From: Rhizobium sp.
GTDB lineage: Bacteria > Pseudomonadota > Gammaproteobacteria > Burkholderiales > Thiobacillaceae
Reading direction: 5' to 3'
NCBI GenBank assembly: GCA_019459285.1
Contig: JAIBEL010000030.1
Span: 1 to 64,000 of the forward strand
Length of the DNA stretch: 64,000 nucleotides
A model generated the notes under the pieces. The model was not told the origin of the DNA and did no database searches. It saw only the letters and a program-made list of their open reading frames with translations. Shown here piece after piece: positions 45,670-53,915 of this stretch (position 1 is the stretch's first letter; each line of letters begins with the position of its first letter). The position numbers and the translations under genes are program-made.

Positions 45670-46827
45670 TCAATCCGCGTTCACGGTACGAAAACCGGCG
45701 AAGGGATCGCGCCGGTCGGGCAGATAGAAATTGCGGAAGCCCGACCGCTTGAAGACAGCCGCGGTGACCGGGCCCCCGCCACGCAATTCCCCGTGCGTGT
45801 GGAACCAGGGTTGCGAATAATCGCGGTAGGGATCGGGGGTGAAGCCCGGATAAGGCACAAACGGATCGCGCAGCCACTCCCACGCCTTGCCCCATTGAAA
45901 TTCCGGTCGCGCCGTCGCGCGTAGCCACTGTGCTGAAGAAGGCAGACGCCGGCCCAGCCATGCGGCAAACGCCTCGGCCTCGTAACGGTTCACGTGCAGC
46001 ATGGGAACCGCTTCGCCGAGCGGCTGCCAGCAGTCGAAGCGGCGTACCTGCCAGCGACCCTTTTCCTGCCGCCAGTACACAGGATGGCAAGCGTCGCAGG
46101 CGAGACGCCAGGCCCAGCCGGCCTCCGACCACCCCGCTTTGCGTCGATAGCCACCCGCATCGACAAATTCGGCGAAGGCCGTCTCCGACACCGGACTCGC
46201 ATCGATATCGAAGGCCTCGACCTGCACCAGATGGCGCCATTTCTCATTATCGAAGATGAAGCCTGTGTCGGGTCCGCTACCGAGCTCGACCTCTCCCGCA
46301 ATAAGCGACAATTGCTGCGCAGGCAGCGTGCCGACGACGTCAGGGTGTTGAGGCGGCGCGTAGCCGAGATCCTGGAACGCCATCCACCATGCCTCGATGT
46401 GCATCAGTTCATGATAAAGACACAATTCGGCGAAGTAGGCGAGGTCAGTGTCGAACCCGCTGCGCAGACGGGCGGCCACGGCGGCAGCAACCTCGTCCGC
46501 GTAGCCGTCGACTGCTGCCGGTTGCAGCAAGGGCAGGTCCCAACGAACGTCGTGCGGCACGCTGGAGGAATCGTAAAGGGCGTCGGCACCACTCAACAAG
46601 CTGGGACCGCAGGTGCCGTCGGGCCGTTCGCGCAGGCACCAGCGTTCCTGGAACCAGACGATATGCCCGTATTCCCACAGCGGCGGATTCAGATGGCCAG
46701 CACGCGGCCCCAGCCAGCCGTCGGCCGGTAGGTAGTCGATCAGCGCGCGCAGCCGCCTGCGCGCCTCTGCCAGCCTATCGATGAGCTGGTTCGCACTGTA
46801 ACCACTGACGGGGCGGGTTCGGTTCAT
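45670..46827 (-). CDS. senA: EgtB-like iron enzyme, probable selenoneine synthase SenA
   Basis: 385 residues. An N-terminal DinB-like helical domain carries the iron ligands His55 (WEYGHIVWFQERW), His139 and His143 (YHELMHIEAWW), and a C-terminal formylglycine-generating-enzyme-like domain follows (EVELGSGPDTGFIFDNEK; VNRYEAEAFAAWLGRRLPSS; RSGFRNFYLPDRR). Such enzymes form the C-S bond of ergothioneine (EgtB) or the C-Se bond of selenoneine (SenA). The neighbouring selD-egtD pair favours selenium. No SenB glycosyltransferase or EgtA/C/E gene is in this window, so the substrate is inferred. A -10 TAGAAT lies upstream. Confidence 0.75.
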   Translation of the reverse strand: MNRTRPVSGYSANQLIDRLAEARRRLRALIDYLPADGWLGPRAGHLNPPLWEYGHIVWFQERWCLRERPDGTCGPSLLSGADALYDSSSVPHDVRWDLPLLQPAAVDGYADEVAAAVAARLRSGFDTDLAYFAELCLYHELMHIEAWWMAFQDLGYAPPQHPDVVGTLPAQQLSLIAGEVELGSGPDTGFIFDNEKWRHLVQVEAFDIDASPVSETAFAEFVDAGGYRRKAGWSEAGWAWRLACDACHPVYWRQEKGRWQVRRFDCWQPLGEAVPMLHVNRYEAEAFAAWLGRRLPSSAQWLRATARPEFQWGKAWEWLRDPFVPYPGFTPDPYRDYSQPWFHTHGELRGGGPVTAAVFKRSGFRNFYLPDRRDPFAGFRTVNAD

Positions 46828-46890
46828 GTTATAAAAAGCACTGTAGCCACTTCATTCTAGGCGCCCACTCTCGACAGGCGAAATCGGACC

Positions 46891-47961
46891 ATGAGCAACC
46901 CCACTCCCAACGACCCCATCCGGTTGACCCAGTTCTCCCACGGCGGCGGCTGCGGCTGCAAGATCGCCCCCTCTGTCCTGCGCGACATTCTCGCCGACAC
47001 GCCCTTCGCCTCGAATGTGGCGGCGGCGTTTCCCGATCTTTTGGTGGGCATCGAGCACGGCGACGACGCCGCCGTCTACCGGCTGAACGACGAGCAGGCA
47101 ATCGTGGCGACCACCGACTTCTTCATGCCCATCGTCGACGATCCCTTCGAATTCGGTCGCATCGCCGCGACCAATGCGCTGTCCGACGTCTACGCCATGG
47201 GCGGGCGGCCGCTCTTCGCACTGGCCATCGTCGGCATGCCGATCGGCAAGCTGCCCAACGATGTCATCCGGCAGATCCTCGCCGGCGGCGAATCGGTGTG
47301 CAAGGCAGCCGGGATCCCCATCGCCGGTGGCCATTCGATCGACGCGCCGGAGCCGATCTACGGCCTCGTCGGCATCGGCGTGGTGAACCCGCGCAAGGTC
47401 AAGCAGAACAGCGGCGGCCAGGCCGGCGACCACCTCATCCTCGGCAAGCCGCTGGGCGTGGGCATCTACAGTGCGGCGCTGAAAAAGGGCCTGCTGAGCG
47501 CCGACCAGTACGCATCGATGATCGCCGCCACGACCCAGCTCAATACCGCGGGTGCCGACCTGGCCGATACCGCGGGCGTGCACGCGATGACAGACATCAC
47601 CGGCTTTGGCCTGCTCGGCCATCTGCTCGAGATCACCCGCGCATCGAAGGTGTCGGCCCAGGTCGAACTGGGCCGGCTGCCATTGCTGCCCGGCGTGAGT
47701 GAACTGGCGCAGGGTGGGCATATCACCGGCGCCAGCGAACGCAACTGGGCGAGCTACGGCAGCGAAGTACTGCTCGCCGACGGCATCGCCGACTGGCAGC
47801 GCGCGCTGCTGACCGACCCGCAGACCAGCGGCGGGTTGCTGGTGAGCTGCGCGCCGGAAGCCCGAGGCGCGGTGCTCGACGCCTTCCGCCGCCACGGTTT
47901 CGCACACGCGATGGAAATCGGCCGGCTGCAGGCCGGCAGCCACGTTGCGGTAGTGGCCTGA
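46891..47961 (+). CDS. selD: Selenophosphate synthetase
   Basis: 356 residues. The N-terminal catalytic loop HGGGCGCKIAP has Cys21 and Lys24 at the positions of the essential Cys and Lys of E. coli SelD. The ATP-binding region follows (GDDAAVYRLNDEQ, TTDFFMPIVDDPFEFGRIAA, NALSDVYAMGG). It makes selenophosphate from selenide and ATP. The egtD GTG follows directly after its stop and the SenA-like gene is divergent, so its product probably feeds selenoneine synthesis (a SenC-like role), in addition to or instead of selenocysteine and 2-selenouridine. Confidence 0.92.
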   Translation: MSNPTPNDPIRLTQFSHGGGCGCKIAPSVLRDILADTPFASNVAAAFPDLLVGIEHGDDAAVYRLNDEQAIVATTDFFMPIVDDPFEFGRIAATNALSDVYAMGGRPLFALAIVGMPIGKLPNDVIRQILAGGESVCKAAGIPIAGGHSIDAPEPIYGLVGIGVVNPRKVKQNSGGQAGDHLILGKPLGVGIYSAALKKGLLSADQYASMIAATTQLNTAGADLADTAGVHAMTDITGFGLLGHLLEITRASKVSAQVELGRLPLLPGVSELAQGGHITGASERNWASYGSEVLLADGIADWQRALLTDPQTSGGLLVSCAPEARGAVLDAFRRHGFAHAMEIGRLQAGSHVAVVA

Positions 47962-48903
47962 GTGTCGTTCACCTTCCAGGACTTTCCTGCTGCGCGCGAC
48001 GATTTGCGCGCCGACGTGCTGGCCGGCCTCGCTGCCCACCCCAAGGCCATTCCACCGAAATACTTCTACGACGAGGCGGGCTGCCGGCTGTTCGATGCGA
48101 TCTGCGCGCAGCCCGAATACGCGCTCTGCCGCACCGAACAGACCCTGATGGCGACCCACCTGCCCGACATCGCTGCCACCCTCGGCGAGGTGGACTGTAT
48201 CGTCGAGCCAGGTGCCGGTGACTGTACCAAGGTGCGTCTGCTGCTCGATGCCCTGCGTCCCACCCATCTCACCGTGATCGACATCGCCGGCGGCCCTCTG
48301 GCCGCGGCGGCGCAGGCTGTCTCCCGCGACTACCCACAGCTTGCCGTTGCGGCGTTGGCGATGGACTTTCTGCACGACCTGGAGGCGGCGGACCCCTGTC
48401 TGCCGGCGGGCCGTCGGCTCGTCTACTACCCCGGCTCCAGCATCGGCAATTTCCCGCCCGACGCGGCGACCGCCCTGCTCGCGCGCTTTCGCCGGCTGGC
48501 CGGCGCGGCGGGCCACCTGCTCATCGGTTTCGACCTCAAGAAGGACCCGCAGCGGCTGCACGCCGCCTACAACGACGACGCCGGCGTCACCGCTGCCTTC
48601 AACCTCAATCTGCTCGCCCGGCTCAACCGCGAACTGGGCGCCGACTTCGACCCGGCCCAGTTTCGTCACTACGCCTTCTACAACCCGGTGGCAGGCCGTA
48701 TCGAAATGCATCTCGTCAGCCTTGCCGAGCAGGACGTACACGTCGCGGGCGAGCGCTTCCATTTCGCGCTCGGCGAGACGCTGCACACCGAACACTCCTA
48801 CAAATTCCGCTGCGACGAATTCAGCGCGCTTGCCCGGACTGCCGGCTGGCAGCTGGCTGGCGAGTGGGAACACAACGGGTTCGCGGTCCAGCTGTTCCGC
48901 TAG
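47962..48903 (+). CDS. egtD: L-histidine N-alpha-methyltransferase
   Basis: 313 residues from a GTG immediately after the selD stop, consistent with coupling. EgtD motifs: PKYFYDEAGCRLFDAICAQP, EPGAGDCTKVRLLLDAL (SAM binding), YYPGSSIGNF, FDLKKDPQRLHAAYND and HSYKFRCDEF. It trimethylates histidine to hercynine, the shared precursor of ergothioneine and selenoneine. Confidence 0.94.
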   Translation: MSFTFQDFPAARDDLRADVLAGLAAHPKAIPPKYFYDEAGCRLFDAICAQPEYALCRTEQTLMATHLPDIAATLGEVDCIVEPGAGDCTKVRLLLDALRPTHLTVIDIAGGPLAAAAQAVSRDYPQLAVAALAMDFLHDLEAADPCLPAGRRLVYYPGSSIGNFPPDAATALLARFRRLAGAAGHLLIGFDLKKDPQRLHAAYNDDAGVTAAFNLNLLARLNRELGADFDPAQFRHYAFYNPVAGRIEMHLVSLAEQDVHVAGERFHFALGETLHTEHSYKFRCDEFSALARTAGWQLAGEWEHNGFAVQLFR

Positions 48904-52388: not shown

Positions 52389-53915
52389 ATGCCTTCCCAT
52401 CGCGACCTCACCTTCGACAACGGCTTCGCCGCGCTGCCCGACACCTTTTATTCGCGCGTGCAGGCCACGCCCGTGCCCGACCCCTACCTCGTCTGCCACA
52501 GCCCGGATGCGCTCGATCTTCTGGGCCTGGACGCCGACGCCATCCGCCATCCCGAACTGATCGAAACTCTGGCCGGCAACCGCGTGCTACCGGGCATGGA
52601 CCCCGTGGCTGCGCTCTACGCCGGGCACCAGTTCGGCCACTATGTGCCGCAGCTCGGCGACGGCCGCGCGATCCTGCTGGGCGAAGTGCGGAATGCAGCG
52701 GGCGAAGGCTGGGAAGTGCAACTGAAGGGCGCCGGCCGCACCCCCTACTCGCGCGGTGGCGATGGCCGTGCGGTGCTGCGTTCGAGCATCCGCGAATTTC
52801 TCTGTTCCGAAGCCATGCACGCGCTCGGCATCCCCACCACCCGCGCGCTTTGCATCGTCGGTAGCGACCGCCCGGTGTACCGCGAGGACGCGGAGACCGC
52901 CGCGCTGGTGACGCGGCTGGCGCCGAGCTTTGTGCGATTCGGTTCCTTCGAGGTGTTCTACTACCGCAACCAGGTCGAACCGATCAAACACCTGGCCGAT
53001 TACGTCATCGCACGCTATTACCCCGAACTGGCCACGCTGGCCGATCCCTACCCCGAATTCCTGCGTCTGGTCACGCTTCGCACCGCCGAACTAATGGCGC
53101 AATGGCAGGCGGTGGGCTTTTCTCACGGGGTGATGAACACCGATAACATGTCCATCCTCGGCCTCACACTCGACTACGGCCCGTTCGGCTTTCTCGACGC
53201 CTTCGACCCCGGCTACATCTGCAACCATTCCGACACCGGTGGCCGTTACGCCTTCGACCAGCAGCCCGACGTCGCGGCCTGGAACATCACCAAGCTGGCG
53301 CAGGCGCTGGTGCCGCTGATGTCGGTGGAAACCGCATCCGGTGCGATCGGCGAATATCCACAGGTATTCGGCAAGGCCTATCTCGAACGCATGGCCGCCA
53401 AATTCGGCCTGCCGCCAGGAGGCGACACCTCCGGGCTCTACCCGCAAGGGGCAGCAGGCCGTGGTTGTAAAGACACTAAAGTGTCAACAACCACGCTTAT
53501 CATGGAGGCGCTGCAACTACTGGCGCAGAACCGCGTCGACTACACGCTCTTCCTGCGCCGTCTGTGCGACTTCGATAGTTCGACAGGGGCATCCAACACA
53601 CCGCTGCGCGATTGCTTCCTCGACCGTGCGGGCTTCGACGCCTGGGCGTCACGCTATGCCGCCGCCCTGCGCCAGCTGGGCTCCAGCGACGTCGCGCGCC
53701 GCCAGGCGATGCGCGCGGCCAACCCCAAGTACATCCTGCGCAACCACCTGGCCGAGATCGCCATCCGCCGCGCGGCGGACGAGCGTGACTACAGCGAGGT
53801 CAACCGCCTGCACGCGCTGCTGACCCGTCCGTTCGACGAGCAGCCGGAATACGAGGCCTACGCTGCCGAGCCGCCCGATTGGGCGAGGAAGATTGAGGTA
53901 AGCTGCTCGTCGTGA
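52389..53915 (+). CDS. selO: Protein adenylyltransferase SelO (YdiU)
   Basis: 508 residues. Pseudokinase-fold motifs: QFGHYVPQLGDGRAILLGE, VQLKGAGRTPYSRGGDGRAV, LRSSIREFLCSEAMHALGI and HGVMNTDNMSILGLTLDYGP (inverted catalytic site). SelO transfers AMP from ATP to Ser/Thr/Tyr of redox-related proteins. The C-terminus is CSS; the Cys stands where eukaryotic SelO has selenocysteine. An unusual insertion, residues about 347-369, contains an inverted repeat (separate entry) between KFGLPPGGD and LIMEALQLLAQNRVDY, which are normally almost adjacent. Confidence 0.93.
   Translation: MPSHRDLTFDNGFAALPDTFYSRVQATPVPDPYLVCHSPDALDLLGLDADAIRHPELIETLAGNRVLPGMDPVAALYAGHQFGHYVPQLGDGRAILLGEVRNAAGEGWEVQLKGAGRTPYSRGGDGRAVLRSSIREFLCSEAMHALGIPTTRALCIVGSDRPVYREDAETAALVTRLAPSFVRFGSFEVFYYRNQVEPIKHLADYVIARYYPELATLADPYPEFLRLVTLRTAELMAQWQAVGFSHGVMNTDNMSILGLTLDYGPFGFLDAFDPGYICNHSDTGGRYAFDQQPDVAAWNITKLAQALVPLMSVETASGAIGEYPQVFGKAYLERMAAKFGLPPGGDTSGLYPQGAAGRGCKDTKVSTTTLIMEALQLLAQNRVDYTLFLRRLCDFDSSTGASNTPLRDCFLDRAGFDAWASRYAAALRQLGSSDVARRQAMRAANPKYILRNHLAEIAIRRAADERDYSEVNRLHALLTRPFDEQPEYEAYAAEPPDWARKIEVSCSS
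53461..53494 (+). repeat. 34-nt palindromic element inside selO
   Basis: GTGGTTGT pairs with ACAACCAC, and inside it GACACT pairs with AGTGTC around a 2-nt loop. It encodes RGCKDTKVSTTT in the selO frame without a stop, within a stretch absent from usual SelO proteins. This looks like a small palindromic element that inserted in frame. Confidence 0.7.

Follow-up and report, generated by a model that had tools for sequence, protein, structure and literature searches.

The divergent arrangement of a gene for an EgtB/SenA-type iron enzyme with the genes for selenophosphate synthetase (SelD) and the hercynine-forming EgtD raises the question of whether this locus of a Thiobacillaceae genome serves the synthesis of selenoneine or of ergothioneine and, in the former case, where the selenosugar synthase SenB is encoded. 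The initial annotation read these as selenoneine genes and left three alternatives: senB lies elsewhere, the selenium donor is formed differently, or the product is ergothioneine and selD is incidental. The window, meaning the whole stretch of 64,000 nucleotides that was analysed, lies on contig C12 of a draft genome of 3.38 Mb in 74 contigs, rated 100% complete. The closest sequences at the senA locus are from Thiobacillus genomes, with SenA identities of up to 84%. The three divergent open reading frames that had been pointed out are present at the following positions, and all score above the NCBIfam cut-offs for SenA, SelD and EgtD, respectively.

45670-46827, minus strand: senA, predicted selenoneine synthase, 385 aa (NCBIfam SenA, Pfam, PDB match, tree, AU test)
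46828-46890, no strand: 63-bp intergenic region separating the start codons of the divergent genes senA and selD (sequence, alignment across loci)
46891-47961, plus strand: selD, selenophosphate synthetase, predicted to play the SenC role (TIGR00476, own-genome search, SelD tree)
47962-48903, plus strand: egtD, predicted histidine N-alpha-trimethyltransferase forming hercynine (TIGR03438, junction sequence)
52389-53915, plus strand: gene of the SelO/YdiU family (NF000658, 585 bits, cut-off 431)

The TGA of selD directly abuts the GTG start codon of egtD. In the intergenic region, a TTTATATAACATG-like stretch adjoining the senA start is conserved across the aligned loci; it is possibly the -10 element of senA, in which case the senA mRNA would be leaderless or nearly so. 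The same organization, in which senA and selD diverge and egtD follows selD, was recovered in 33 of 79 SenA-type loci from public genomes (a count including L035 and L040, where the egtD behind selD is a short 3' remnant only), and senA is divergent from selD in six further loci lacking egtD there, two of which (L038, L051) stop at a contig edge. Therefore, the senA-selD-egtD arrangement is not due to chance. Cultured relatives with this unit include Thiobacillus thioparus DSM 505 (L019), which encodes EgtB as well, and T. denitrificans RG (L017). The SelO/YdiU gene is located 3.5 kb beyond egtD.

The 385-residue protein contains the Pfam domains FGE-sulfatase and DinB_2, and would be a non-haem iron enzyme composed of a DinB-like and an FGE-type domain. 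It scores 433.1 bits with the NCBIfam SenA model (cut-off 420) and approximately 230-240 bits with the EgtB model (cut-off 360); four EgtBs of relatives scanned in the same way reached 544-582 bits with the EgtB model and 338-371 bits with the SenA model. Its best PDB matches are the SenA structures 8ryz and 8k5i (263 bits), followed by OvsA (168 and 159 bits) and EgtB (150 bits). The SenA model alone is not decisive, since the window protein exceeds the cut-off by only 13 bits, which three SenAs among the 44 of our family survey (described below) fail to reach and an OvsA-like protein (G044) passes; because of the latter, SenA was separated from OvsA by means of the tree and the PDB matches. 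In a tree of 93 rows, the window protein branches inside a clade of 53 rows (support 100/100), which groups with another clade of 15 rows containing the SenAs of senB-selD clusters (95/94), and seven EgtBs and two OvoAs stand apart from these SenA clades. The window-type SenAs form a separate clade, with a branch length of 0.5, within the SenA side of the tree. Forcing the window protein to group with the seven EgtBs was 80 log-likelihood units worse (AU test, p-AU 3e-12). Firm grouping with EgtB, which the initial annotation had named as part of the outcome contradicting its reading, was recovered neither in the tree nor in the AU test.

The conserved residues agree with this placement. Eight positions (E52, S87, H92, W96, M142, A146, Y334 and D374) match at least 15 of 17 canonical SenAs, are shared by 42/42 Thiobacillus-type rows and are all different in the seven EgtBs. 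H55, H139 and H143, which we take to be the iron ligands by assignment from EgtB, are conserved in every aligned group. The window SenA departs from the canonical ones at L141 (D in 16/17) and R320 (A in 16/17). By model, tree and residues, the protein is thus a predicted SenA and not an EgtB, and the EgtB-model search of the whole genome retrieved nothing at or above the cut-off, only the window protein itself and a 31-bit match.

Regarding senB, the TIGR04348 model (named by NCBI selenoneine selenosugar synthase SenB) gave a single match above its cut-off in the genome, at C33:56392-57321 (445 bits vs 300), the eight further matches below it reaching at most 49 bits. The gene is indeed absent from the window on C12, as initially annotated, and the alternative that it lies elsewhere proved correct. 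Judging by the contig ends, senA and senB are separated by at least approximately 27 kb, and senA, senB and senC are not clustered here, which bears on the gene arrangement and not on the chemistry. The flanks of senB on C33 encode a TPR protein, a YcaO protein and a RIO kinase, and no recognised selenium-metabolism gene was found in them. The SenB protein (319 aa) matches the PDB entries 8k5u (232 bits), 8jjq and 8fbx (both 215 bits). It retains 10 of the 11 functional residues given in PMC10891094, including the proposed catalytic K158, the sole deviation being N instead of H at position 235. K158 is also kept in 42/42 other aligned SenB rows (some of which represent the same gene twice, and one the window genome's own), and five of the rows (L068, L069, L071, L072 and L080) have a substitution at T23, R61 or T83. 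Since the genome encodes a SenB carrying the published catalytic residues, no other selenium donor would be needed, and the suggestion that the donor is formed differently finds no support. Among the 79 public loci, senB was missing from the flanks of 63, and whole-genome searches for 50 of these recovered it elsewhere in 43, so that a search restricted to linked senABC would miss such genomes. For the other seven (L052, L063, L066, L079, L085, L088 and L092), SenB was not found genome-wide; in the 93-row tree, L088 and L092 belong to the EgtB side.

We surveyed 100 genomes of the family, evenly drawn from a larger group and including the window genome, and found SenB in 70. The SenA-model search (E 1e-30) gave matches in 67 genomes, reduced to 44 with SenA after removing EgtB, OvoA-like and three OvsA-like genomes; 41 of the 44 score above the curated cut-off. 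Among the rejected candidates, apparent second SenAs in G017, G046, G067, G079 and G098 (338-347 bits with the SenA model) are really EgtBs, as called by model scan for L103 and L105 and by tree grouping for L104, L106 and L107. In G009, G044 and G066, the proteins matched are OvsA-like, as called by PDB comparison for L109 and by grouping with L109 in the tree for the other two, and dropping them lowered the SenA count from 47 to 44. SenB is present in 42 of the 44 SenA genomes, the exceptions being G073 (93% complete, 290 contigs) and G098 (79% complete). Considering the 59 high-quality genomes, 31 encode both proteins, one SenA only, 17 SenB only and ten neither, an association with a Fisher p of 0.0015, a value that ignores relatedness. 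Within the genus, 30 of 39 genomes encode SenA and SenB, none of them with both genes within 10 kb on one contig: in three they share a contig at distances of 107, 447 and 966 kb, and in the other 27 they are on different contigs, hence no distance is available. Outside the genus, senA and senB are linked in six of 12 genomes. This single genus offers a clean contrast between genomes with the senA-selD-egtD unit, with SenB only, and with SenA and EgtB.

The selD product scores 434.1 bits with TIGR00476 (cut-off 125) and is the only full SelD found in a search of its own genome. SelA (581 bits) and MnmH/SelU (370 bits) are encoded in the same genome, so SelD alone is no evidence for selenoneine; presumably, one SelD also supplies SelA for selenocysteine and MnmH/SelU for selenouridine. 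Across the family, SelD occurs in 89/100 genomes and shows no association with SenA. In the genus, selD adjoins senA in 31 of the 39 genomes, corresponding to 31 of the 32 that bear SenA. It is found only next to mnmH in G033, G053, G086, G095 and G099, where SenA and EgtD are both absent, G071 has both a senA-linked and an mnmH-linked copy, and no SelD match was obtained in the genus genomes G073, G085 and G094. In a SelD tree of 51 rows (quick method, SH-aLRT support only), 24 senA-linked rows including the window split off with a branch support of 99, and the mnmH-linked SelDs from this genus fall in another part of the tree, together with SelDs from other genera (support 98). The SelDs of L054, G002 and G003 come closest to the senA-linked group, with a weaker support of 83; in L054 and G002 the gene adjoins senB, in G003 it does not. 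An incidental neighbourhood of selD was therefore rejected, as the gene belongs to a senA-linked lineage set apart from the mnmH-linked selD of senA-less relatives. The window SelD may descend from a SenC of the sen pathway that became the general SelD of most genomes of the genus.

The egtD product (371.3 bits with TIGR03438, cut-off 290.9) would be the hercynine source of the sen pathway. EgtD was detected in all 44 SenA genomes of the family survey and in none of the 56 others, and a separate genome search recovered it in 30 of 32 genomes. For L035 and L040, a full-length egtD match is located elsewhere in the genome, the copy in the L040 genome carrying one internal TAA. In Caldimonas manganoxidans (L085), senA is divergent from selD, and neither SenB nor EgtD matches were retrieved from the genome. 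Four Thiobacillus genomes, G017 (L104), G079 (L105), G067 (L106) and G046 (L103), encode SenA and a true EgtB but a single EgtD, which adjoins SenA in G046 and EgtB in the other three. With two synthases and one EgtD, the SenA and EgtB pathways seem to share hercynine in these Thiobacillus.

Together, genes, protein families, phylogeny and conserved residues were computed, and from characterised homologues the catalytic steps and the product can be proposed. In the described pathway, SenC/SelD forms selenophosphate, SenB the selenosugar, and SenA couples the latter to hercynine, the resulting selenoxide giving selenoneine (PMC9814287, PMC10702425, PMC10903977). Here, SelD would convert selenide to selenophosphate, the SenB encoded on C33 would combine selenium with a UDP-sugar into a 1-selenosugar, and EgtD would trimethylate histidine to hercynine. 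The oxygen-using, non-haem iron enzyme SenA would then join selenosugar and hercynine into a selenoxide, whose breakdown would yield selenoneine. The locus thus very probably comprises three genes of the known selenoneine pathway, senA, senC and egtD, with senB elsewhere in the genome. Points weighing against this reading are the unlinked senB and the SenB genomes that lack SenA, the narrow margin above the SenA cut-off, the separate clade of window-type SenAs with its differences at L141 and R320, and the N at position 235 of SenB.

The reading in which the 385-residue protein acts as an EgtB with a sulfur donor to make ergothioneine, and selD is incidental and serves selenocysteine and selenouridine, is very improbable. 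The other clients of SelD encoded in the genome and the wide occurrence of SelD irrespective of SenA would fit it, and some sulfur product is conceivable given that SenB is only 10-20-fold selective against thiophosphate, according to PMC10702425. Nevertheless, the low EgtB-model score (240 bits at most against 360), the lack of another EgtB above the cut-off in the genome and the AU test all oppose it, true EgtB is a separate gene in addition to SenA in five survey genomes of the same genus, and the senA-linked SelD lineage is distinct from the mnmH-linked one. The ergothioneine alternative of the initial annotation therefore fails. Even less probable is that the senB on C33 serves a different pathway and that a second selenium donor of unknown nature feeds senA. 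The separate location of senB and its retention in relatives without SenA could be taken in this sense; it is opposed by the presence of SenB in 42 of 44 SenA genomes, the two lacking it being the less complete G073 and G098, and by its recovery in 43 of the 50 genomes where it is not near senA.

An OvsA-type synthase acting on histidine to give an ovothiol-like selenium compound is the least probable of these readings. OvsA (PDB 8u41, 8ux5) uses a selenosugar, and its product is named ovoselenol. It belongs to the same enzyme superfamily as the window SenA and is a close relative by PDB score (168 bits), and three genomes of the family encode OvsA-like proteins. However, SenA structures match the window protein better, whereas the family protein tested (L109) shows the opposite pattern (OvsA 534 bits, SenA 184). 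Moreover, the three OvsA-like rows group in a clade of their own in the 93-row tree, with the window protein outside, and their genomes lack EgtD, in contrast to all SenA genomes. These three genomes (L108 in G044, L109 in G066, L110 in G009) encode SenB and are candidates for making a selenium analogue of ovothiol.

Compared with described systems, the preferred selenoneine reading involves known chemistry, and the differences lie in gene arrangement and host group. Kayrouz and colleagues reportedly described the senABC selenoneine cluster of Variovorax paradoxus in 2022. As in this cluster (PMC9814287, PMC10702425, PMC10903977), the window genome encodes SelD/SenC, SenB and SenA, the latter two matching solved Variovorax structures. 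In contrast to it, senB lies apart, egtD directly follows selD and senA is divergent from both; the senA-selD-egtD unit and senB can also occur separately in relatives. A Hydrogenophilus-type locus (L054, identical in sequence to G010) contains all four genes of the window genome, with identities of 63% (SenA), 59% (SenB), 75% (SelD) and 65% (EgtD), but there selD adjoins senB and all four lie within approximately 6 kb. The EgtB-EgtD ergothioneine loci of some Thiobacillus (L104, L105, L106) resemble the window in having EgtD beside a related iron enzyme, and G017, G067 and G079 harbour such a locus plus a separate senA-selD locus. They differ in that EgtB reaches 568-582 bits with its own model (L103, L105) and stays below the SenA cut-off, and in lacking SelD. 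Thiobacillus-type sulfur oxidisers can be added to the predicted selenoneine makers. The literature search yielded no account of such genes from Thiobacillus, a weak indication of absence as most subscription literature was outside the search.

SenB has a broader distribution than SenA. No SenA was detected in 28 of the 70 SenB genomes, and 25 of these (25/100 of the family) also lack OvsA. Among the 59 high-quality genomes, SenB occurs without SenA or OvsA in 15, of which seven encode an OvoA-like protein and eight do not; OvoA-like proteins were assigned by score, the one confirmed OvoA (L115 of G044) being outside these 15. The catalytic residues are kept in the five aligned SenBs of this SenA-less kind (L100, L101, L102, L113 and L114). 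The unlinked senB, together with the 28 SenB genomes without SenA, indicates that SenB is not dedicated to SenA. We tentatively suggest that its selenosugar may here be a shared intermediate or an end product that has one or more additional, as yet undescribed uses, although we regard this as rather doubtful. Such a use would account for the separate placement of senB and its retention in relatives that have neither SenA nor OvsA. On this view, selenoneine synthesis would represent a single branch of a broader selenosugar metabolism. The SenB genes lacking a known partner are an immediate starting point for finding other metabolites made from selenosugars. In the complete, single-contig genome G002 (L102, G002:C1:173000-190000), and likewise in G014, G022, G030 and G043, senB and selD lie side by side, with SenA, OvsA and EgtD absent.
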